Below, one piece after another: positions 13,128 to 19,923 of a stretch of DNA of 20,751 nucleotides; position 1 is the first letter of the stretch, and every line of letters begins with the position of its first letter. The position numbers and the translations under genes were made by a program. The notes under the pieces were generated by a model. It searched no databases. It saw only the letters and a program-made list of their open reading frames with translations, and had not been told where the DNA came from. The DNA lies in IMG/VR virus record IMGVR_UViG_3300042691_017797, positions 1-20,751 of that record; one strand, written 5' to 3'. The stretch comes from a virus.

Positions 13128-14954
13128 CTAGTGCCTTTGTAGTACTCCAAACACGTTCTTTACCGTCACGTTGCTTGCGCTGACTTCAGACGCATACCTA
13201 AGAACAATGTTTCCAGTGGCGGTGACATTAACATACCCGGTAAGCGTTGCAGTCAAATCAACGTTCGCAGTTCTGGTCGATGGCGCAGGGAGTCCGCCAT
13301 CGAATGCTCTGATCTGCATGTTACCACCATCCGTTGTAAGCGTAGAATACCCAACGTCAATGCCAAGGTAGTCGATTGTTGCCGTTCCGTTAATGCTTAA
13401 CTGTATGCCAGTGGTCGTAGCCACTGATTGGTAAACTACCACAAGCTGGATGCTATAAAAGCCCGGCGACACACTACTCCACCCTGCGCTTGAATCAACA
13501 TCAGCAAGCGTTGTGGCGCTGCGGACCTGATTCCCGCCTGTGTACGTTATGAATTGTGGGGTGTTCGCAGACGCAGGCCCTTGAATGCCCTGCAATCCCT
13601 GAGGGCCTTGGGCGCCTTGGGCGCCCTGAGTGCCAGCACCGGTGGTTCCCTGTATGCCGACAAGGCCCTGAATCCCCTGAACTCCCTGCAAGCCATCAGC
13701 TCCTTGAACTCCCTGCAATCCCTGAACACCTTGCAAGCCTTGGGCGCCCTGAGTGCCCTGAGCTCCAAGGTCGCCTTGAACTCCCTGCAAGCCCTGCAAG
13801 CCCTGCAAGCCCTGAACACCTTGCAAGCCTTGGGTGCCTTGAACTCCCTGAATGCCCTGTGTGCCTTGTATGCCTTGGGCACCCTGAACCCCTTGTGTGC
13901 CTTGTGGTCCCTGAGTTCCTTGGACCCCTTGAGTGCCCTGAGGGCCTTGCAAGCCCTGTGCTCCCTGCGTCCCCTGTATGCCAAGGTCACCTTGGATGCC
14001 CTGAGTACCCTGCAATCCCTGAGGGCCTTGGGTGCCTTGGGTGCCGTCAAGCCCTTGCAGTCCACGATTACCCTGTACCCCCTGTGTCCCTTGTATGCCT
14101 TGAGCCCCTTGGGGACCAAGCTGGGTATACATCACCTGCGTCACGGTGACGATGACACTGGGTATGGCGGGGTGAACAAGGTTAGCCGGGTCGGCAAGTA
14201 TTGAAACAGCGGTGTCTGATGTCGCCCAGTATATCTCTATGTAGTCATTGGCGGCGAGGGTGACCACGAAGTTCCACGCCGGGAGATGGTATCCATCAGT
14301 CCCTCCTTGCCTTTTGTGGATGGTGAACTGGCTGTCGCTCTCTGGGATGTCAGTACCGTTCTTCTTGAACCAGATGTCAACCACCTCCTCAGAGGTGGAT
14401 GCGTTGGCGAACTGCGCGGAGAACTGAAAGTTGTACGTACCAGCGGCGGATACGGTGATCTCGGTGGGCTGACCAAGGCCGTTGTTGACGATGCTGACCC
14501 CGTTAGACTCTGCTGTGGTGTTCAGCTTGAACGGGTAGCCCGTGTCCGCGAGGGCTGCGGTCTGGTCGGTGGTGTCGTAGAACGCACCATAGTAACCAAG
14601 TGCTCCCCCGGGTCCGACAGGGCCAAGGGTTCCTTGTAGTCCCTGTGCTCCTTGTGGGCCTTGTACGATCAGACCATCGAACGGGTTGCAACACTCCCCT
14701 GCGATCGCAGAGATGTCGTCGACGCACTTCTTGGCACCGAAGAGGTCATTGGACCACTTGAGTTGGTCGGGGAGACCGCTTCTGAGGTCGATGGTGAACT
14801 TCTCCGCGTTCTTGCGCTCGACGTGGACCAGATAGTACTGAGGGGTGCCGGGGACCACCTCGTACCACACCCTAATGATGTCAGTACCGAGTATGGTCGT
14901 CACGAACGACCCAACGTCAAAGGTGACCTTTGATTTGGTGAATGTGACTATCAT
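13128..14954 (-). CDS. Collagen-like fibre protein
   Basis: This 608-residue protein has five parts. An N-terminal module (1-98) contains WSND and CVDD and resembles the 9184 protein. A short Gly-X-Y segment covers 99-118. A strand-rich domain (119-278) looks C1q/TNF-like in composition. A long collagen-like tract (280-461) has Gly every third residue, mostly GxQ with Leu, Val, Ile, Thr or Ala at X. A second strand-rich tip (465-608) is rich in Thr, Val and Gly. Collagen-like tracts make trimeric rods in phage tail fibres, so a trimeric receptor-binding fibre is likely. The ATG at 14954 follows a 27-codon ORF by four bases. The downstream GH130-like and TPR genes are in the same operon. Confidence 0.85.
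   Translation of the reverse strand: MIVTFTKSKVTFDVGSFVTTILGTDIIRVWYEVVPGTPQYYLVHVERKNAEKFTIDLRSGLPDQLKWSNDLFGAKKCVDDISAIAGECCNPFDGLIVQGPQGAQGLQGTLGPVGPGGALGYYGAFYDTTDQTAALADTGYPFKLNTTAESNGVSIVNNGLGQPTEITVSAAGTYNFQFSAQFANASTSEEVVDIWFKKNGTDIPESDSQFTIHKRQGGTDGYHLPAWNFVVTLAANDYIEIYWATSDTAVSILADPANLVHPAIPSVIVTVTQVMYTQLGPQGAQGIQGTQGVQGNRGLQGLDGTQGTQGPQGLQGTQGIQGDLGIQGTQGAQGLQGPQGTQGVQGTQGPQGTQGVQGAQGIQGTQGIQGVQGTQGLQGVQGLQGLQGLQGVQGDLGAQGTQGAQGLQGVQGLQGVQGADGLQGVQGIQGLVGIQGTTGAGTQGAQGAQGPQGLQGIQGPASANTPQFITYTGGNQVRSATTLADVDSSAGWSSVSPGFYSIQLVVVYQSVATTTGIQLSINGTATIDYLGIDVGYSTLTTDGGNMQIRAFDGGLPAPSTRTANVDLTATLTGYVNVTATGNIVLRYASEVSASNVTVKNVFGVLQRH
13572..14117 (-). repeat. Collagen-coding tandem repeat tract
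   Basis: About 546 bases encode 182 residues of Gly-X-Y. At DNA level the tract is a run of degenerate 9-base units such as CCCTGCAAG and CCTTGAACT on the plus strand, with several near-identical units side by side near 13790-13815. Such a tract can gain or lose units by slippage or recombination, changing fibre length. Confidence 0.9.
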
Positions 14955-15371: not shown

Positions 15372-15406
15372 GTGGTTGAGCGGAGAACCACTATGTTGTA
15401 AAGAAC
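15372..15406 (-). promoter_or_regulatory. boxA-like element plus hairpin (nut-like) in the fibre-operon leader
   Basis: On the minus strand GTTCTTTACAACA (15406-15394) matches the boxA antitermination element of ribosomal RNA leaders. Two bases later GTGGTT and AACCAC form a 6-bp stem with an 8-base loop (15391-15372). boxA binds NusB/S10 and promotes antitermination in known systems. The 17942 site in the opposite operon has the same order and the same stem and loop sizes. Confidence 0.55.
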
Positions 15407-15414
15407 AGAGGGTG

Positions 15415-15422
15415 CGAACATA
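15415..15422 (-). promoter_or_regulatory. Candidate leftward promoter TATGTTCG of the fibre operon
   Basis: The minus strand reads TATGTTCG eight bases before the boxA element, so the RNA would begin almost at boxA. A TTG lies 23 bases upstream, slightly beyond the usual spacing. Confidence 0.45.
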
Positions 15423-15465
15423 AGAACTTTTTTCATCTCGACGCACAACGGGTCAAAAAAAATGT

Positions 15466-15473
15466 TAGCTTCG
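15466..15473 (+). promoter_or_regulatory. Candidate rightward -7 element TAGCTTCG
   Basis: TAGCTTCG fits TAnnTTYG and is eight bases before a GTG at 15482. It is divergent from the leftward 15415 promoter. No -33 TTTG is present at the right distance. Confidence 0.4.
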
Positions 15474-15481
15474 TGGTCAGA

Positions 15482-15655
15482 GTGAACTCAAGCTGGAAGC
15501 TCAAGGACCGCAGGTTCCGAAAGAAGAAGCAAGCCAAGGACCGCTCCAAGTGGATCAGAAAAGAGAAGGAGAAAAGGTGTCCGTGTGGCTGCGGTCAGCT
15601 ATTGCTTGAGAGGAAACAGAGAAACATCAAGTGGCCAGTACAGGGTGTTTACTGA
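15482..15655 (+). CDS. Small basic protein with Cys cluster (57 aa)
   Basis: The frame from GTG 15482 reads MNSSWKLKDRRFRKKKQAKD and later KRCPCGCGQLLLERKQ. A GTG three codons earlier is possible but overlaps the promoter-like element. The protein is extremely basic in its first half and has a CPCGCG cluster that could bind zinc, though with only three Cys it would need another ligand or a dimer. Nucleic-acid binding is plausible. A minus-strand promoter-like site at 15714 would produce antisense RNA to it, so its status is less certain than that of its neighbours. Confidence 0.5.
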   Translation: MNSSWKLKDRRFRKKKQAKDRSKWIRKEKEKRCPCGCGQLLLERKQRNIKWPVQGVY

Positions 15656-15713
15656 GGTACAAGCAAAACCCGTCCACCGACATCCGGTGACACTATGCCC
15701 CTGCGGCCGTGAC

Positions 15714-15721
15714 AAAGATAT
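15714..15721 (-). promoter_or_regulatory. Leftward TATCTTTG element facing the 15482 gene
   Basis: The minus strand carries an exact TATCTTTG within TTATATCTTTG. No gene follows directly on that strand except a doubtful 18-codon frame from 15684. It could drive antisense RNA or an even longer fibre-operon leader, or be a chance match. Confidence 0.35.
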
Positions 15722-15744
15722 AACTCTCTGAAACACAAGCACTT

Positions 15745-15972
15745 ATGGACCACAAAAAAAATCACGAGATCATCGACTCTTTGATCGAGCAAGGGAAGAG
15801 AGGGGAAGCTGCGACGATGATCATGAACGACCCCGCCGCCTGCCTGATGGTTGCGATTGGCGCCCTGTCAGACCACGGGGACAAGAGCATGGCATTGGTC
15901 ATGGCCGGTCGTGCGTGTGAGCTCTTGAGCGAAGAGCTGTTCCCCCAAAAGCCCGTTAAGTTCGATGACTGA
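15745..15972 (+). CDS. Small helical protein (75 aa), unknown function
   Basis: The protein begins MDHKKNHEIIDSLIEQGKRG and is predicted to be helical throughout, with two or three amphipathic helices resembling a single TPR-like hairpin (EAATMIMNDPAACLMVAIGA; MALVMAGRACELL). It overlaps the start of the methyltransferase-like gene by eight bases, so the two are coupled. A CACCG-ACATC-CGGTG hairpin lies upstream near 15676-15690. No family is recognised. Confidence 0.7.
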   Translation: MDHKKNHEIIDSLIEQGKRGEAATMIMNDPAACLMVAIGALSDHGDKSMALVMAGRACELLSEELFPQKPVKFDD

Positions 15973-16504
15973 CCAGCTTGAGTACATCATGCGGTCTGTG
16001 TGGATGCCCGGGGACCACATCCGGCCATCGGACCAGTTCTTGGAGCACTACCGCCACAAGATGGAGGTCGCGAAAAGGTTCCAACCCCGCAACGTGGTCG
16101 AAATAGGGACCAGATGCGGGTACTCACTGGCAGCTTTCAGCGTGGGCCACAAGAGCAGCTACCTCTGCTTCGACGCTCAGGCTGACCACGACAGCGAGAG
16201 ATGCGAAGAGCACTGGCACACGGTGGTAAGCGACCTCATGCTCGACGCCAAGCTCATTGTGGTCAACAGCCAGTCCCTCATCCGCATCCCCAAGGCAGAT
16301 CTTGCCCACGTCGACGGGGACCATGGGTACAAGGGAGCGTACCATGATCTAGTTCTTGTCAAGGACTCTGACGTGATCCTCGCCGACGACTGCGACATCT
16401 ACGACGTAAAGAAAGCAGTCCACGACTTCTCAAAGTTGTACAACAAGAACGTAGAGCTAAAACACGATGGTCTACGTGAATACGCAATCCTGACAAACAA
16501 ATGA
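15965..16504 (+). CDS. Class I methyltransferase-like protein (Methyltransf_24 type)
   Basis: This 179-residue protein shows the Rossmann SAM-binding signature VVEIGTRCGYSLAAF (about residues 44-58, ExG-x3-G) and LCFDAQADHD after strand 2. HVDGDHGYKGAYHDL (about 115-129) and VILADDCDIYD follow, a pattern characteristic of Methyltransf_24 proteins. Members methylate sugars or small molecules and often sit in glycan loci. No membrane segment is present. It overlaps the upstream helical gene by eight bases and the downstream coiled-coil gene by ATGA. The substrate is unknown; a surface or fibre glycan would fit the GH130-like and TPR genes nearby, though those are in the opposite operon. Confidence 0.8.
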   Translation: MTDQLEYIMRSVWMPGDHIRPSDQFLEHYRHKMEVAKRFQPRNVVEIGTRCGYSLAAFSVGHKSSYLCFDAQADHDSERCEEHWHTVVSDLMLDAKLIVVNSQSLIRIPKADLAHVDGDHGYKGAYHDLVLVKDSDVILADDCDIYDVKKAVHDFSKLYNKNVELKHDGLREYAILTNK

Positions 16505-16731
16505 CCAACAACGAAGAACTTGCTTCTGAGGTGGAGTCCATCCGAAGCTACATGGACAACTACGTCCAGCCACTGGCAGGGAGCGTTGAAAAACTCGTGT
16601 CCAACATGGAGACCATGCAGCTACGCTTGAACGAGATGGAAGAAAAGCTCAAGTACGTCATGGGCCGCATCTCCGAGCAGGACAGGGACATGGCAGACGT
16701 GTTCCGCATCATGTCAACCCTCGCAAAATAA
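16501..16731 (+). CDS. Small coiled-coil protein (76 aa)
   Basis: The sequence (MTNNEELASEVESIRSYMDN onward) shows regular heptads of Leu, Met and Val through residues 10-65, for example EKLVSNMETMQLRLNEMEEK. It should form a parallel or antiparallel coiled coil. It overlaps the methyltransferase-like gene (ATGA) and the next gene (TAATG). Small acidic coiled-coil proteins beside a membrane peptide can belong to lysis or assembly units, but nothing here proves that. Confidence 0.7.
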   Translation: MTNNEELASEVESIRSYMDNYVQPLAGSVEKLVSNMETMQLRLNEMEEKLKYVMGRISEQDRDMADVFRIMSTLAK

Positions 16732-16823
16732 TGGACACCCTGCTCATCTTCTCGGCCATTCTCATAGCCATAGTGGTAGGACACATCTTGGACGAGTACT
16801 CCCACTACTCGCGAAAAGACTAA
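16731..16823 (+). CDS. Single-pass membrane peptide (30 aa)
   Basis: The frame starts in a TAATG overlap with the preceding stop and encodes MDTLLIFSAILIAIVVGHIL then DEYSHYSRKD. Residues 4-20 form one strongly hydrophobic segment with a charged C-terminal tail, so N-out/C-in or the reverse is possible. It could be a very small holin-like or accessory lysis peptide, but that is a guess from size and topology. Its end overlaps the convergent HTH-like gene stop by three bases. Confidence 0.55.
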   Translation: MDTLLIFSAILIAIVVGHILDEYSHYSRKD

Positions 16824-17029
16824 CCCCCTGTGGCCAAACGCCTCTCCCTCTTCTTACGATGAGGGTAGAACCCTATGTCATAACGCATAAGGTTCAGATA
16901 AGCCTTCTGTAGTGGACTAAGAAAGCTCTCCTCAAGAGCCTTCACAGCCCATACCTCACACCCAAGTTCCTTGGCCACCTCCTCCAAGGTGAACAGAGCC
17001 TCCCTCCTTCGTGTCAACCTGTTATCCAT
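16820..17029 (-). CDS. Small HTH-like DNA-binding protein
   Basis: The 69-residue protein from ATG 17029 has a basic N-terminus (MDNRLTRRREALFTLEEVAK) and a predicted helix-turn-helix: LEEVAKELGCEVWAVKALEE (about residues 15-34), where AKELGC is the turn. It then shows a helix and a basic tail (PHRKKRERR). It resembles small phage regulators or sigma-region-4-like domains, with no more specific match. An in-frame GTG at 17074 is rejected because a TAACTTCG -7 element sits five bases before the ATG. The gene borders the repeat-rich control region and is the best candidate to bind its repeats (inference). Confidence 0.6.
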   Translation of the reverse strand: MDNRLTRRREALFTLEEVAKELGCEVWAVKALEESFLSPLQKAYLNLMRYDIGFYPHRKKRERRLATGG

Positions 17030-17034
17030 GTGGG

Positions 17035-17042
17035 CGAAGTTA
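17035..17042 (-). promoter_or_regulatory. -7 element TAACTTCG for the HTH-like gene
   Basis: The minus strand reads TAACTTCG, CCCAC, ATG. The five-base gap is the same as at 9839. Confidence 0.5.
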
Positions 17043-17201
17043 TGCGGAGAATACACCCCTTTATCTCCGCGCACAGTAAAAATCTGCCCTCAGAGACACG
17101 ATATGGTACCAAAAGTACCCCCACCCCCACTCAATAGGAGAAATCGTCCCCAAGCCCCGAAAACCAGCCAAGAAAAGGGGTACCTAAATGTTTTGACATA
17201 T

Positions 17202-17261
17202 ACGGGGATAGCCAAACATTCATAGCACGGGGGATGGTTGAATATTCTAGACACGGGGGAT
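17202..17261 (+). repeat. Three iteron-like repeats ACGGGGGAT, spacing about 25 bases
   Basis: ACGGGGAT at 17202, ACGGGGGATGG at 17227 and ACGGGGGATGG at 17253 are spaced 25 and 26 bases apart. The regular spacing puts successive copies about two and a half helical turns apart. They could bind an initiator or repressor. Confidence 0.55.
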
Positions 17262-17473
17262 GGACCCCACTCAACCCACCCCTCCCCCTCTTCGCGGGAA
17301 GAATGGTACCTGTTCATTCTGTGGCCCCCGGGTAAAAGGGAACCTAAACCCATGTCAGCACACTATACATGCACCGGGCTGCACCATGTCCTCTATTTTC
17401 CGCCGGGGCAGGGTCGTCGTCCATCTGCTTTGGGGGAAGGATCATCGCCCACCATCTGGGCAGGGAGAAGGTG

Positions 17474-17519
17474 CGCCTGATCATCAGGCGAGGGGCGATG
17501 CATTTTGGCGAGGGGTGAT
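17474..17519. repeat. 17-base palindrome plus paired direct repeats
   Basis: CGCCTGATCATCAGGCG (17474-17490) is a perfect inverted repeat around a central C. It runs into GGCGAGGGGCGAT (17487-17499), repeated as GGCGAGGGGTGAT at 17507-17519, 20 bases on. This looks like a protein-binding cluster such as an operator. Confidence 0.5.
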
Positions 17520-17755
17520 TTGGTAGTCAAGGTGCGGGAGGAGAAAGGGTGGGAGGAGCCAGCCGGGGCGACCCTCTTGTGGTGGTAGAGTGCTACTATC
17601 CCCCCTCCTCCCCTCTCTATCTGATCACGCCTCCTTGACCGTACACGCACGAGCACCTACTGTAGGGGGCGAATTTTTTTCTCCCTGAGCGTCAGTTGAT
17701 TAGCTTGTTTTTGCAAATTTTTTTTGCACCTGTGATTTGAGACATGGCAAAAGTG

Positions 17756-17824
17756 GCTGAAACCCGCGTGGCTGTAGGGCTGTAGAGCGACGACCGAAAT
17801 TGCCTGATTCGCTGAAACCCGCGT
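17756..17824 (+). repeat. 14-base direct repeat upstream of the early promoter
   Basis: GCTGAAACCCGCGT occurs exactly at 17756-17769 and 17811-17824, 55 bases apart, the second copy ending 19 bases before the promoter's -33 box. Possible operators or activator sites. Confidence 0.55.
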
Positions 17825-17843
17825 CATTGCTGGGGATTCTCGA

Positions 17844-17876
17844 TTTGCACATCGAAAGTTGATGCCCCCATCTTTG
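17844..17876 (+). promoter_or_regulatory. Early promoter TTTG-N21-CATCTTTG
   Basis: TTTG (17844-17847) and CATCTTTG (17869-17876) are separated by 21 bases, matching Bacteroidota -33/-7 spacing with one mismatch in the -7 box. It would transcribe the boxA leader, the tRNA-like elements and the small-gene operon. Confidence 0.6.
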
Positions 17877-17941
17877 CACAGTCGGACAACGGAACACCCC
17901 CTCGAATAGCAGGCCGGTCCTTAAGAGTCCTCTCCGATCGC

Positions 17942-17982
17942 GTTCTTTGACATCTTGGCCAACGTAGGGATAGCAGCCTACG
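17942..17982 (+). promoter_or_regulatory. boxA-like element plus hairpin (nut-like) in the early leader
   Basis: GTTCTTTGACATC (17942-17954) closely resembles the boxA of Bacteroidota and Bacillus ribosomal RNA leaders. After a short spacer CGTAGG and CCTACG make a 6-bp stem with loop GATAGCAG (17963-17982). The layout recalls lambda nut sites and copies that of the leftward leader at 15372-15406. Confidence 0.6.
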
Positions 17983-18029
17983 GTCGATGCCGCTCCATCA
18001 AACCAAGGTGAGAGGCCATCGGCAGGATC

Positions 18030-18098
18030 AGCGTGGAGGCACCAACCGGAACATCGGTGGTGGTGCGGTGAAGGGTTCGAATCCCTTCCCACGCTCCA
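18030..18098 (+). ncRNA. tRNA-like element 1, D-armless, followed by CCA
   Basis: A 7-bp acceptor-like stem pairs AGCGTGG (18030-18036) with CCACGCT (18089-18095), and CCA follows at 18096-18098. The T-arm has a stem GAAGGG/CCCTTC and a 7-base loop TTCGAAT (18076-18082). Between them a single hairpin pairs GCACCA with TGGTGC and ACCG with CGGT. There is no D-arm or standard 7-base anticodon loop, so it is not a decoding tRNA. It lies in the leader just before the first early gene. Confidence 0.65.
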
Positions 18099-18119: not shown

Positions 18120-18365
18120 ATGGATACCAAGAACAAGAACCACGAAGTGGCAGCAATGCTCATCGCCTCGATGCTGAACGAGCGCAAGGATGGCTCGGCC
18201 AAGATGTCAAACAACGAGTACTACAGCACCATCGAACTGAGCAGCCCATCCATCTACGGATGGACGGTGCTCGAGGTCATGGCCAAGGCTGCAACATGGC
18301 AGGTACAGGTGGTCATAGACGTCAACGTCATGAACGGGCTTCAGATCAGGGTGCATAACAACTGA
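18120..18365 (+). CDS. Small early protein (81 aa), unknown function
   Basis: The protein starts MDTKNKNHEVAAMLIASMLN after an A/C-rich leader lacking a Shine-Dalgarno, as is usual for this host group. It has an N-terminal helical half and a strand-rich second half (WTVLEVMAKAATWQVQVVID, then VMNGLQIRVHNN). It is the first gene after tRNA-like element 1 and is separated from the next gene by element 2. No family is recognised; small early proteins like this often modify host functions. Confidence 0.7.
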   Translation: MDTKNKNHEVAAMLIASMLNERKDGSAKMSNNEYYSTIELSSPSIYGWTVLEVMAKAATWQVQVVIDVNVMNGLQIRVHNN

Positions 18366-18385: not shown

Positions 18386-18428
18386 AAGGTGGATGGTCGA
18401 AGGGGCGGTTCAACTCCGCCCCCACCTT
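18386..18428 (+). ncRNA. tRNA-like element 2, acceptor stem plus T-arm only
   Basis: AAGGTGG (18386-18392) pairs with CCACCTT (18422-18428). The T-arm has stem GGGCGG/CCGCCC and loop TTCAACT (18409-18415). Only ten bases lie between acceptor and T-arm, containing ATGGTCG, which recurs in element 3. It begins 20 bases after the stop at 18365 and ends 26 bases before the next ATG. Confidence 0.6.
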
Positions 18429-18454
18429 CAACAACTTCAAAACAACCCAACAAC

Positions 18455-18688
18455 ATGGTACGCACCAACAACATCAAGATCGTGGAGAACAGCTACGGTT
18501 TCCGCTCGCTGATCATCGACGGACGCTACAGGATCAGCACCGACCTTGCCAAGGTCGCCGCGGGGAAAGACAAGTGGTTGTCGGAAGTCCTGCTGGAGTG
18601 CAGGACGTGCAAGGGAAAGCACCCGGCCTACAGCATGGAGCTGCACGGGCAGTACTGCACGGAGTGCTGGGAGGCAGAAGAGGTCTGA
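18455..18688 (+). CDS. Small early protein with CxxC-CxxC zinc-binding motif (77 aa)
   Basis: From ATG 18455 (MVRTNNIKIVENSYGFRSLI) an N-terminal strand-rich region leads to a C-terminal four-Cys motif CRTCKG...QYCTECW (about residues 48-71), a CxxC-x17-18-CxxC zinc ribbon type. A frame open further upstream runs through tRNA-like element 2, so the ATG after it is the start. Zinc ribbons bind nucleic acids or proteins; no more specific function can be read. Confidence 0.7.
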   Translation: MVRTNNIKIVENSYGFRSLIIDGRYRISTDLAKVAAGKDKWLSEVLLECRTCKGKHPAYSMELHGQYCTECWEAEEV

Positions 18689-18695
18689 TCAGTAC

Positions 18696-18741
18696 AGGGG
18701 GCGATGGTCGCCCAGCGCAGGTTCGACTCCTGCGGCCCCCT
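18696..18741 (+). ncRNA. tRNA-like element 3, acceptor stem plus T-arm only
   Basis: AGGGGGC (18696-18702) pairs with GCCCCCT (18735-18741). The T-arm has stem CGCAGG/CCTGCG and loop TTCGACT (18722-18728). The 13-base linker can also form GGGCGA-TGG-TCGCCC (18699-18713), which competes with the acceptor stem. It starts seven bases after the stop of the zinc-motif gene. Confidence 0.7.
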
Positions 18742-18766
18742 CTAAACCATTAACACCAACACCAAC

Positions 18767-19033
18767 ATGGACGCATCAACACTTCGCACCGCCGTTACGG
18801 CAACCGGGTCGCACTTCTTCGACGCCGCCACCATGCGGTTCTTCGGGGACAGGATGGGGAACTACTACGTGGCCAAGCACCCCGTGACCATCACCAAGCG
18901 CGATGGAAGCACGGCAACGTGCTGGGAACTTCGTCGCCGCAAGCCCGTAAAGTTCGGCCAGCAGGGGTCTTGCTACTTCAACATCGAAACATACGAGCGC
19001 GTGATGCCAGCACCTTGGAACGAAACCATCTAA
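18767..19033 (+). CDS. DUF7447-like early protein (88 aa)
   Basis: The text TGSHFFDAATMRFFGDRMGN (about residues 13-32) followed by NYYVAKHPV, WELRRRKPVKFGQQGSCYFN and a short tail matches the pattern of the small phage family DUF7447, in which GSHFF, MRFFGD and RKPVKHG are typical. The biochemical role of the family is not established. The ATG at 18767 follows an A/C-rich leader downstream of tRNA-like element 3. It heads a set of five closely spaced small genes. Confidence 0.8.
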   Translation: MDASTLRTAVTATGSHFFDAATMRFFGDRMGNYYVAKHPVTITKRDGSTATCWELRRRKPVKFGQQGSCYFNIETYERVMPAPWNETI

Positions 19034-19046
19034 CCTCAGCAATACC

Positions 19047-19226
19047 ATGCTTACCAACACCACCGCCCGATACTGGGCAGACCCAGCAGAGGCAGAGGCA
19101 GTAGCCGCCGATGCCAACGCAAACGACAACTGGACCTATGTGGCGGTCCACGACCCCAAGGGTACCGGGTACTCCTACATCAACGTGTACGACGAGGAGG
19201 GCCACTATGTGGGCAAAATGTTCTAA
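19047..19226 (+). CDS. Small acidic early protein (59 aa)
   Basis: ATG 19047 to TAA 19226 encodes a protein beginning MLTNTTARYWADPAEAEAVA and ending INVYDEEGHYVGKMF. It has an Ala/Glu-rich helix and a strand-rich, Tyr-rich second half (YVAVHDPKGTGYSYINVYDE) that looks like a small beta fold. The gene follows its neighbour by 13 bases. No family is recognised. Confidence 0.7.
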   Translation: MLTNTTARYWADPAEAEAVAADANANDNWTYVAVHDPKGTGYSYINVYDEEGHYVGKMF

Positions 19227-19238
19227 CATCAACTGACC

Positions 19239-19481
19239 ATGACCATCCAAAACATTGACGGGGCCAAGGCCCTGCTGCTCACCGCCTATTGGCAATTTCA
19301 GCGCGAAGACCTGCTGGTGCGCCTGACCAGCGAGGAAATTCAAGCGTGGGCGCAAGATCGCATCGCATCGCGCCCTGACCTGTTCGTGGGCACCGCCCGC
19401 GAAATAGACCTCACCGCCCAGCACCTTGTGCTTTGGCTAATCAACAAGCCTTCCATCTTTGACAAGCTACACAACGCCTAA
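19239..19481 (+). CDS. Small helical early protein (80 aa)
   Basis: The protein starts MTIQNIDGAKALLLTAYWQF and is mostly helical and amphipathic, with a balanced charge and no membrane segment or Cys. It begins 12 bases after the previous stop, with an A/C-rich leader (CATCAACTGACC). Function unknown. Confidence 0.7.
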   Translation: MTIQNIDGAKALLLTAYWQFQREDLLVRLTSEEIQAWAQDRIASRPDLFVGTAREIDLTAQHLVLWLINKPSIFDKLHNA

Positions 19482-19631: not shown

Positions 19632-19841
19632 ATGGAAGAGAAAAGCTTTGGCCAGCGCCTGCTGGATAAGTACAACGCCGAGCCGCGCATCAGCGCCACA
19701 ATCGCCAAGGTTCACGCCTCATCAGCCACCATGGACAATGGCGATACCGTCAGCCAGCGGTTCTGCCGCTACTCTCTTTGGGAGGCCGGGCAGATTGTGA
19801 ACTATCCGAAGCGGTATGCAGCGGTGAAGGGCACGAACTAA
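19632..19841 (+). CDS. Small basic early protein (69 aa)
   Basis: The ATG at 19632 (MEEKSFGQRLLDKYNAEPRI) is chosen because it follows the previous stop by 11 bases. An upstream ATG in the same frame would overlap the membrane-protein gene. The protein is mixed alpha/beta, basic, with Tyr-rich C-terminal text (YSLWEAGQIVNYPKRYAAVK). Function unknown. The gene is followed after six bases by tRNA-like element 4. Confidence 0.65.
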   Translation: MEEKSFGQRLLDKYNAEPRISATIAKVHASSATMDNGDTVSQRFCRYSLWEAGQIVNYPKRYAAVKGTN

Positions 19842-19847
19842 AGCAAC

Positions 19848-19893
19848 AGGGGGCATTGGATGCCCAGCACAGGCTCGACTCCTGTGGCCCCCT
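19848..19893 (+). ncRNA. tRNA-like element 4, acceptor stem plus T-arm only
   Basis: AGGGGGC (19848-19854) pairs with GCCCCCT (19887-19893). The T-arm has stem CACAGG/CCTGTG and loop CTCGACT (19874-19880). GGGCAT-TGG-ATGCCC (19851-19865) can form an alternative hairpin. Against element 3 the paired changes CG to CA with CG to TG in the T-stem, and GA/TC to AT/AT in the hairpin, are compensatory. Confidence 0.7.
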
Positions 19894-19923
19894 CTAAACA
19901 CCTAAACACCCAACACTACCACC

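Follow-up and report, generated by a model that had tools for sequence, protein, structure and literature searches.

Anticodon-less tRNA-like structures as probable processing marks in the boxA-led early operon of a virus

The window analyzed here, a virus record of 20,751 bases taken as a whole stretch (IMG/VR record IMGVR_UViG_3300042691_017797), carries on its plus strand an early operon of small genes in whose intergenic stretches we find four tRNA-like structures (TLS), all downstream of a sequence that resembles the boxA of host ribosomal RNA (rRNA) leaders. We propose, with a probability of roughly 0.7, that the TLS are punctuation marks of the messenger RNA at which RNase P would cut, and that this boxA-led operon is a transcription unit in the style of stable RNAs. 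A preliminary description of the same DNA had been concerned with boxA-like strings on both strands; the TLS that follow the plus-strand leader were absent from it. The elements on which the argument turns are these (nt, nucleotides; bp, base pairs; ORF, open reading frame):

17942 to 17957, plus strand: boxA in its extended form GTTCTTTGACATCTTG, rank 1 against a matrix of 16S leaders and the same in the relative L015.
18030 to 18095, plus strand: TLS1, located in the leader ahead of the first small ORF and containing one additional internal hairpin; fold z-score -3.6, conserved in the relatives L010 and L015.
18386 to 18428, plus strand: TLS2, a canonical 43-nt structure; 59.7 bits to the model R1, which TLS2 itself helped to build.
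18696 to 18741, plus strand: TLS3, starting 7 nt after the stop of the ORF that ends at 18688; 36.1 bits to R1, from whose training set it was absent.
19848 to 19893, plus strand: TLS4, starting 6 nt after the stop of the ORF that ends at 19841.

Each TLS consists of a 7-bp acceptor stem, a T-stem closed by an ordinary T-loop (TTCRANT or CTCGACT type) and a short linker that carries GG and is 10 nt long in most copies; there is no anticodon arm, and the acceptor stem is stacked on the T-arm. The fold z-scores of the four range from -3.6 to -1.9. The 12-13 bp coaxial stem closed by a T-loop has the shape of an RNase P substrate. Hairpins of acceptor stem, T-stem and T-loop are indeed efficient substrates of this enzyme, whose RNA pairs with a 3' RCCA, and which also processes certain mRNAs and, among phage RNAs, M3 and C4 (PMC11143913); moreover, in haloarchaeal constructs RNase P and tRNase Z cut tRNA-like elements that flank an RNA (PMC4946936). 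ARAGORN recognized no tRNA in the window or in nine TLS loci, and an Rfam 15 scan of the window returned no family above its gathering score. The best Rfam match of any TLS (L015:420-377 to the mascRNA-menRNA family, RF01684) scored 31.6 bits, below the gathering score of 42.5.

The relatives, which were found with a 780-aa late-operon protein of the window as query, attest to the conservation of these structures. L010 and L015 both have TLS1-TLS3 in the same order, with compensatory changes that keep the pairing. Changes on both sides were seen at 9 of the 13 predicted pairs among 7 sequences and at 11 of 13 in an alignment of 24, where the covariation score was 1.01 (0.19 after shuffling); the rows of this larger alignment were preselected for good pairing, so that the percentage paired within it is not evidence. 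A BLAST comparison of the early region with L010 gave matches at 18029-18096, 18386-18444, 18695-18743 and 19847-19895, those for TLS1, TLS3 and TLS4 comprising the TLS plus 1-2 nt. One gene (19025-19245) and some minor stretches matched as well, and the other genes between the TLS had no match in this comparison. The TLS marks outlast most of the genes between them.

The element is found in scores of viral contigs and in the genomes of Actinomycetota. A pattern of linker plus T-loop recovered at least 119 viral stretches; a stricter one recovered 91 stretches in GTDB genomes, mostly of Actinomycetota (Streptomyces, Nonomuraea, Nocardia, Corynebacterium) with one Bacteroidales metagenome-assembled genome, and a similar one 72 stretches in viral contigs. 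These counts are lower bounds, since the patterns fix the linker and under-count divergent TLS such as TLS1 and TLS4. A structural scan of the collected loci yielded 94 candidates, compared with 1.8 in shuffled sequence; some of the 94 belong to ordinary tRNAs. Less biased than the alignment are 104 distinct genome matches selected by linker and T-loop only: an acceptor helix of at least 5 contiguous pairs is present in 84 of them, versus about 11% when the 5' strand is displaced, and most of the remainder keep the acceptor with a mismatch in the T-stem, about four looking like chance. Several of the genome copies have plasmid relatives. In tRNA numbering, position 74 is C in 84% of viral and 97% of genomic TLS, and the dinucleotide R73-C74 occurs in 66% and 96%, respectively.

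Unannotated TLS are also carried by named phages that are laboratory isolates, namely Gordonia phage VanLee and the mycobacteriophages Beckerton and Konstantine. Measured against the deposited annotations, VanLee has a TLS in 8 of the 8 gaps over 55 nt within 5 kb, all eight copies being different, and the Beckerton operon gp40-gp53 has one in 8 of 9 gaps, where one of the eight is a linker-less minihelix read by eye. The TLS thus stand at gene borders of polycistronic operons, the location of t-elements and of tRNA punctuation. More generally, 45 of 114 viral TLS (40%) have their 5' end 6-8 nt past the stop of an ORF with at least 60 codons, compared with 1.4% at random. This distance test and the deposited annotations took the place of a test of overlap with ORFs, which carried no information: in GC-rich DNA, 92% of random positions fall within ORFs called greedily. 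In Beckerton, the TLS just after the gp53 stop (L293 19428-19469) overlaps the annotated start of gp54, which suggests that this start is misplaced.

Conserved borders around swapped genes could have quite another origin, in that the TLS might be DNA sites of recombination or integration, either an attP that includes the 3' end of a tRNA or cassette borders resembling attC. Homology blocks do end at the edges of the TLS while most genes between them differ, the position right behind stop codons would suit such sites, and tRNA 3' ends are common att sites. We consider this improbable, however, as both acceptor strands and the T-stem covary, eight different copies share one 5-kb stretch of VanLee, and the conservation of R73-C74 is an RNA-level signature. 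An attP would be a single copy of the 3' half of a host tRNA; here there are 4-8 different copies, each with a paired 5' strand that has undergone compensatory change. No integrase was seen among those of the window's predicted proteins that were examined, a part of the whole set.

The stable hairpins right behind stop codons might equally be thought to be transcription terminators, attenuators or signals of stop-codon read-through, the more so as a 7-nt spacing after the stop resembles that of read-through stimulators. This is very improbable. Runs of at least 5 T within the 9 nt after the TLS occur in 11 of 126 cases (4% at random), and we rejected the intrinsic terminator for want of a U-run after the stem; the read-through signal was rejected in turn, because neither an open frame behind the stop nor a frame shared with the next gene is a consistent feature.

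Rather more plausible, though still unlikely, is a role in trans, the TLS being released as small RNAs that mimic tRNA and either occupy or titrate host tRNA-binding enzymes (RNase P, the CCA-adding enzyme, TruB/TrmA or EF-Tu) or act as decoys for tRNA-targeting defence. The conserved T-loop and acceptor shape, tRNA mimicry itself and the several copies per genome with different acceptor sequences would all fit. But a decoy need not sit 6-8 nt behind stops in gap after gap, and one strong copy would do. Mimicry in trans and cutting are not mutually exclusive.

In the processing mechanism that we favor, RNA polymerase would probably start near 17.88 kb, and the nascent leader would expose the host-type boxA at 17942. 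This is predicted to recruit the host Nus factors (NusB-S10 and partners), and the Nus-bound polymerase would then continue through long stretches of RNA that are untranslated or only briefly translated. Within the transcript TLS1-4 would separate the small genes of the early operon; the linker's GG might dock on the T-loop in the manner of G18-G19 of a tRNA. Host RNase P would recognize the stacked 12-13 bp, the T-loop and R73-C74. Its predicted cut falls at the 5' end of the TLS, typically 6-8 nt behind the upstream stop, and a second cut on the 3' side, by RNase Z or another nuclease, would free the next message. The polycistronic RNA would thereby be resolved into single-gene units with separate stabilities, with a presumed effect on their expression. 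In many phages the freed message would begin with a hairpin: one is present directly 3' of the TLS in 14-24% of cases, as against 1-2% in shuffled sequence. Directly 3' of TLS1 and TLS3, L010 and L015 have an inverted repeat, GTTAGTGA ... TCACTAAC, which recurs at several TLS of each phage.

Several observations weigh against this proposal. C75 is mostly not kept and CCA is not encoded in the TLS, which makes the affinity of RNase P for them uncertain. U at position N-1, which RNase P often favors, is rare. TLS2 lies 20 nt after the upstream stop, outside the 6-8 nt spacing. Finally, most TLS loci have no recognizable boxA and the early leader of L010, which corresponds to that of the window, has TLS without boxA; hence boxA and TLS need not work together.

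The evidence for the boxA itself comes from a scoring matrix that we built from the boxA-like sites of Bacteroidota 16S leaders, taken from whole genomes. The string GTTCTTTGACATC, which the preliminary description had correctly placed at 17942-17954 on the plus strand, belongs to the site that ranks first among the 41,482 positions of the two strands of the window, with 18.7 bits, and it is identical to Bacteroidota leader strings such as GTTCTTTGACA. Bacteroidota 16S leaders have GTTCTTTGA as their boxA-like core: GTTCTTTGA(C/A/T)A is frequent in them, mostly 82-146 nt before the 16S gene at loci with enough upstream sequence, and several of the Bacteroidota 16S loci examined had no boxA of the GTTCTTTGA type. 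We further compared the 16-mer GTTCTTTGACATNTTG with its reversed pattern by location rather than by number, all figures being among the matches listed. In viral contigs the 16-mer lay outside any open frame of 100 or more codons in 69% of 109 matches, and the control in 4% of 97. A Bacteroidota promoter (TTG-N18-23-TAnnTTTG) stood upstream in 10%, compared with 1%. In 57 of 110 cases, compared with 0 of 89, a tRNA gene lay within the next 800 nt of the same strand, at a median distance of 14 nt. Given the 16S-leader match, the noncoding location and the downstream tRNA genes, the plus-strand element appears to be the phage counterpart of the host rRNA-operon boxA, often placed ahead of tRNA arrays, and it offers a searchable leader signature for the tRNA operons of Bacteroidota phages. 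Among the relatives, the corresponding early leader of L015 carries GCTCTTTGACATCTTGGCC at its head.

It is doubtful that the boxA strings are nothing but chance matches in AT-rich DNA, devoid of function. The lack of boxA in the L010 leader and the weakness of the minus-strand copy speak for such an origin; on the other side, the plus-strand copy is the rRNA-operon motif of the host group, and the extended motif shows a strong association with tRNA genes.

That minus-strand copy lies in the putative leader of the fibre operon. The preliminary description had likened both strings to the boxA of rRNA leaders, each followed by a hairpin with a 6-bp stem and an 8-nt loop, and had read these matched modules as one Nus-dependent antitermination system serving both operons. 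The strings and the hairpins exist where it had put them:

15394 to 15406, minus strand (read from 15406 to 15394): boxA-like string GTTCTTTACAACA, a weak match within the putative leader of the fibre operon; rank 4, 12.6 bits.
15372 to 15391, minus strand: hairpin GTGGTT-ctccgctc-AACCAC, probably coincidental.
17963 to 17982, plus strand: hairpin CGTAGG-gatagcag-CCTACG after the boxA, the tip of a longer stem.

The score of the minus-strand string is on par with probably coincidental matches elsewhere, and with GTTCTTTAC it breaks the consensus GTTCTTTGA; its resemblance to an rRNA-leader boxA is thus weak, and that of the plus-strand string stands. As to the hairpins, 0.7% of positions have, starting within 15 nt, a stem of 6 bp with a loop of 8 nt (4.7% for loops of 3-10 nt), and folding places the plus-strand hairpin at the end of a longer stem that has TTGGCC/GGTCGA. 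No such 6-bp hairpin follows the boxA of the relatives L015 and L018; the matching sizes are therefore not conserved. We have therefore abandoned the matched hairpins as a boxB-like module, their frequency being as expected and conservation lacking; with a weak minus-strand copy and equal hairpins that are not conserved, the matched pair looks coincidental. The wider claim of antitermination survives in part. For the early operon, a Nus/boxA antitermination leader is supported by sequence; for the fibre operon, where the window's own copy is degenerate, the case is weaker. In L018 and L019 a good GCTCTTTGACA lies about 60 nt after a Bacteroidota-type promoter (TTGACA...TATGTTTG) and probably stands ahead of the fibre operon. 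Two other candidates were rejected. The GTTCTTTGAGT at 4118 of L014 and L016 was dropped as a fibre-leader boxA, since its surroundings look like coding sequence of the opposite strand (by eye, a homologue of the window ORF 16501-16731), and the GGTCTTTGACA of L003 and L020 is inside an ORF.

Both elements have relatives among known systems. Messages punctuated by tRNAs are a hallmark of mitochondria, and there, as with t-elements, tRNA or tRNA-like structures between genes are cutting signs for tRNA-processing enzymes. The elements described here differ from those in belonging to operons of bacterial phages and mobile elements, in having a dedicated anticodon-less form and in varying in sequence between copies; they often stand 6-8 nt behind stops, and their cutting is predicted. 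The mascRNA/menRNA (RF01684) are likewise tRNA-like RNAs without a proper anticodon arm, but they belong to mammalian nuclear long noncoding RNAs, the TLS score below the gathering score of that family, and there is no evidence of common descent. The M3 RNA and the C4 antisense RNA of P1/P7 are phage-encoded non-tRNA substrates of bacterial RNase P (PMC11143913), as the TLS would be; those are single small or regulatory RNAs, whereas the TLS form a repeated intergenic punctuation, and in the Rfam comparison the TLS matched neither M3- nor C4-type families. The boxA shares both GTTCTTTGA and the leader position with Bacteroidota 16S leaders, but here the operon that it is predicted to serve is an early one of a phage, made up of TLS and genes for small proteins. 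The order of boxA and hairpin in a phage early leader recalls the lambda nut sites (boxA, boxB hairpin and N protein), from which the window differs in that its hairpin is not conserved in relatives, as a boxB would be, and that no N-like protein was identified.

We found no description of the TLS element in the open-access full-text literature, although one may exist elsewhere; as the search was limited to open-access papers, novelty is probable rather than proven. The working of tRNA punctuation and of t-elements is known, and what seems new is a dedicated anticodon-less phage form in the elements of two phyla. We lean, with somewhat less assurance than for the window itself, toward an undescribed RNA class shared by phages and mobile elements across two or more phyla of bacteria, in which minimal anticodon-less elements, better conserved than the majority of the genes between them, would be general cutting marks and would hand mRNA processing to host RNase P and which in some Bacteroidota phages would be paired with an rRNA-type boxA, so that early protein operons are handled like tRNA or rRNA operons. 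If this is true, a bacterial counterpart of mitochondrial punctuation, made from dedicated mini-tRNAs, would add a new level of gene control in phages and account for many of the 80-100 nt gaps left blank in annotations, and the TLS would be a portable natural part for cutting RNA.

Some further features of these loci deserve mention. L018 (2019-1631, minus strand) and L019 (2792-2404, minus strand) have real tRNA gene arrays roughly where L010 and L015 have TLS, and TLS may replace tRNA arrays among the relatives. From boxA to TLS1, L015 (2043-1623, minus strand) has a leader of about 420 nt, apparently noncoding, partly conserved and also present in L010, which is possibly a structured RNA; it had no Rfam match. 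Contigs with TLS also hold, on the same strand, near-threshold ribozymes of the type-III hammerhead or type-P1 twister kind. The hammerheads, just under the Rfam cut-off, are in L124 (12652-12595, minus strand), L050 (720-777, plus strand) and L137 (4680-4734, plus strand). The twisters (47.9 bits, cut-off 67.2, E about 1e-7) are in L058 (1247-1308, plus strand) and L075 (9225-9286, plus strand), where they stand shortly before a start codon with TLS further downstream. A TLS-rich region of Nonomuraea (L191) is similar to plasmid genes annotated as a NUDIX protein in Streptosporangium roseum pSROS01 (L258) and Planobispora rosea pPR2 (L259); a gene for a Pycsar effector family protein or a RapZ-like gene adjoins, and a defence operon is possible.

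In the window itself the minus strand carries the late operon, with a weak match to the P22 portal, the 780-aa protein and, at 13128-14954 (minus strand), a fibre protein with collagen-like repeats (Pfam Collagen, E 1.8e-30). On the plus strand, about 1 kb without a convincing gene (16805-17880) lies between a small operon and the early leader, and the early operon of small ORFs extends from about 18.1 kb. A megablast search of INPHARED revealed no phage related to the window, and searches of the small early ORFs against PHROGs and Pfam gained little. The remaining features of this region are:

17843 to 17877, plus strand: weak candidate promoter of the Bacteroidota type (TTTG ... CATCTTTG), read by eye and tentative.
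18120 to 18365, plus strand: ORF of 81 aa, the first small ORF after the TLS1 leader.
18455 to 18688, plus strand: small ORF of 77 aa.
18767 to 19033, plus strand: small ORF of 88 aa.

Upstream of the early leader, at 17741-17769 and 17796-17824, there is an imperfect repeat with GCTGAAACCCGCGT at its end, and L010 has several similar copies of CGCGGGTTTCAG upstream of its own early leader; these repeats are candidate binding sites of a regulator.

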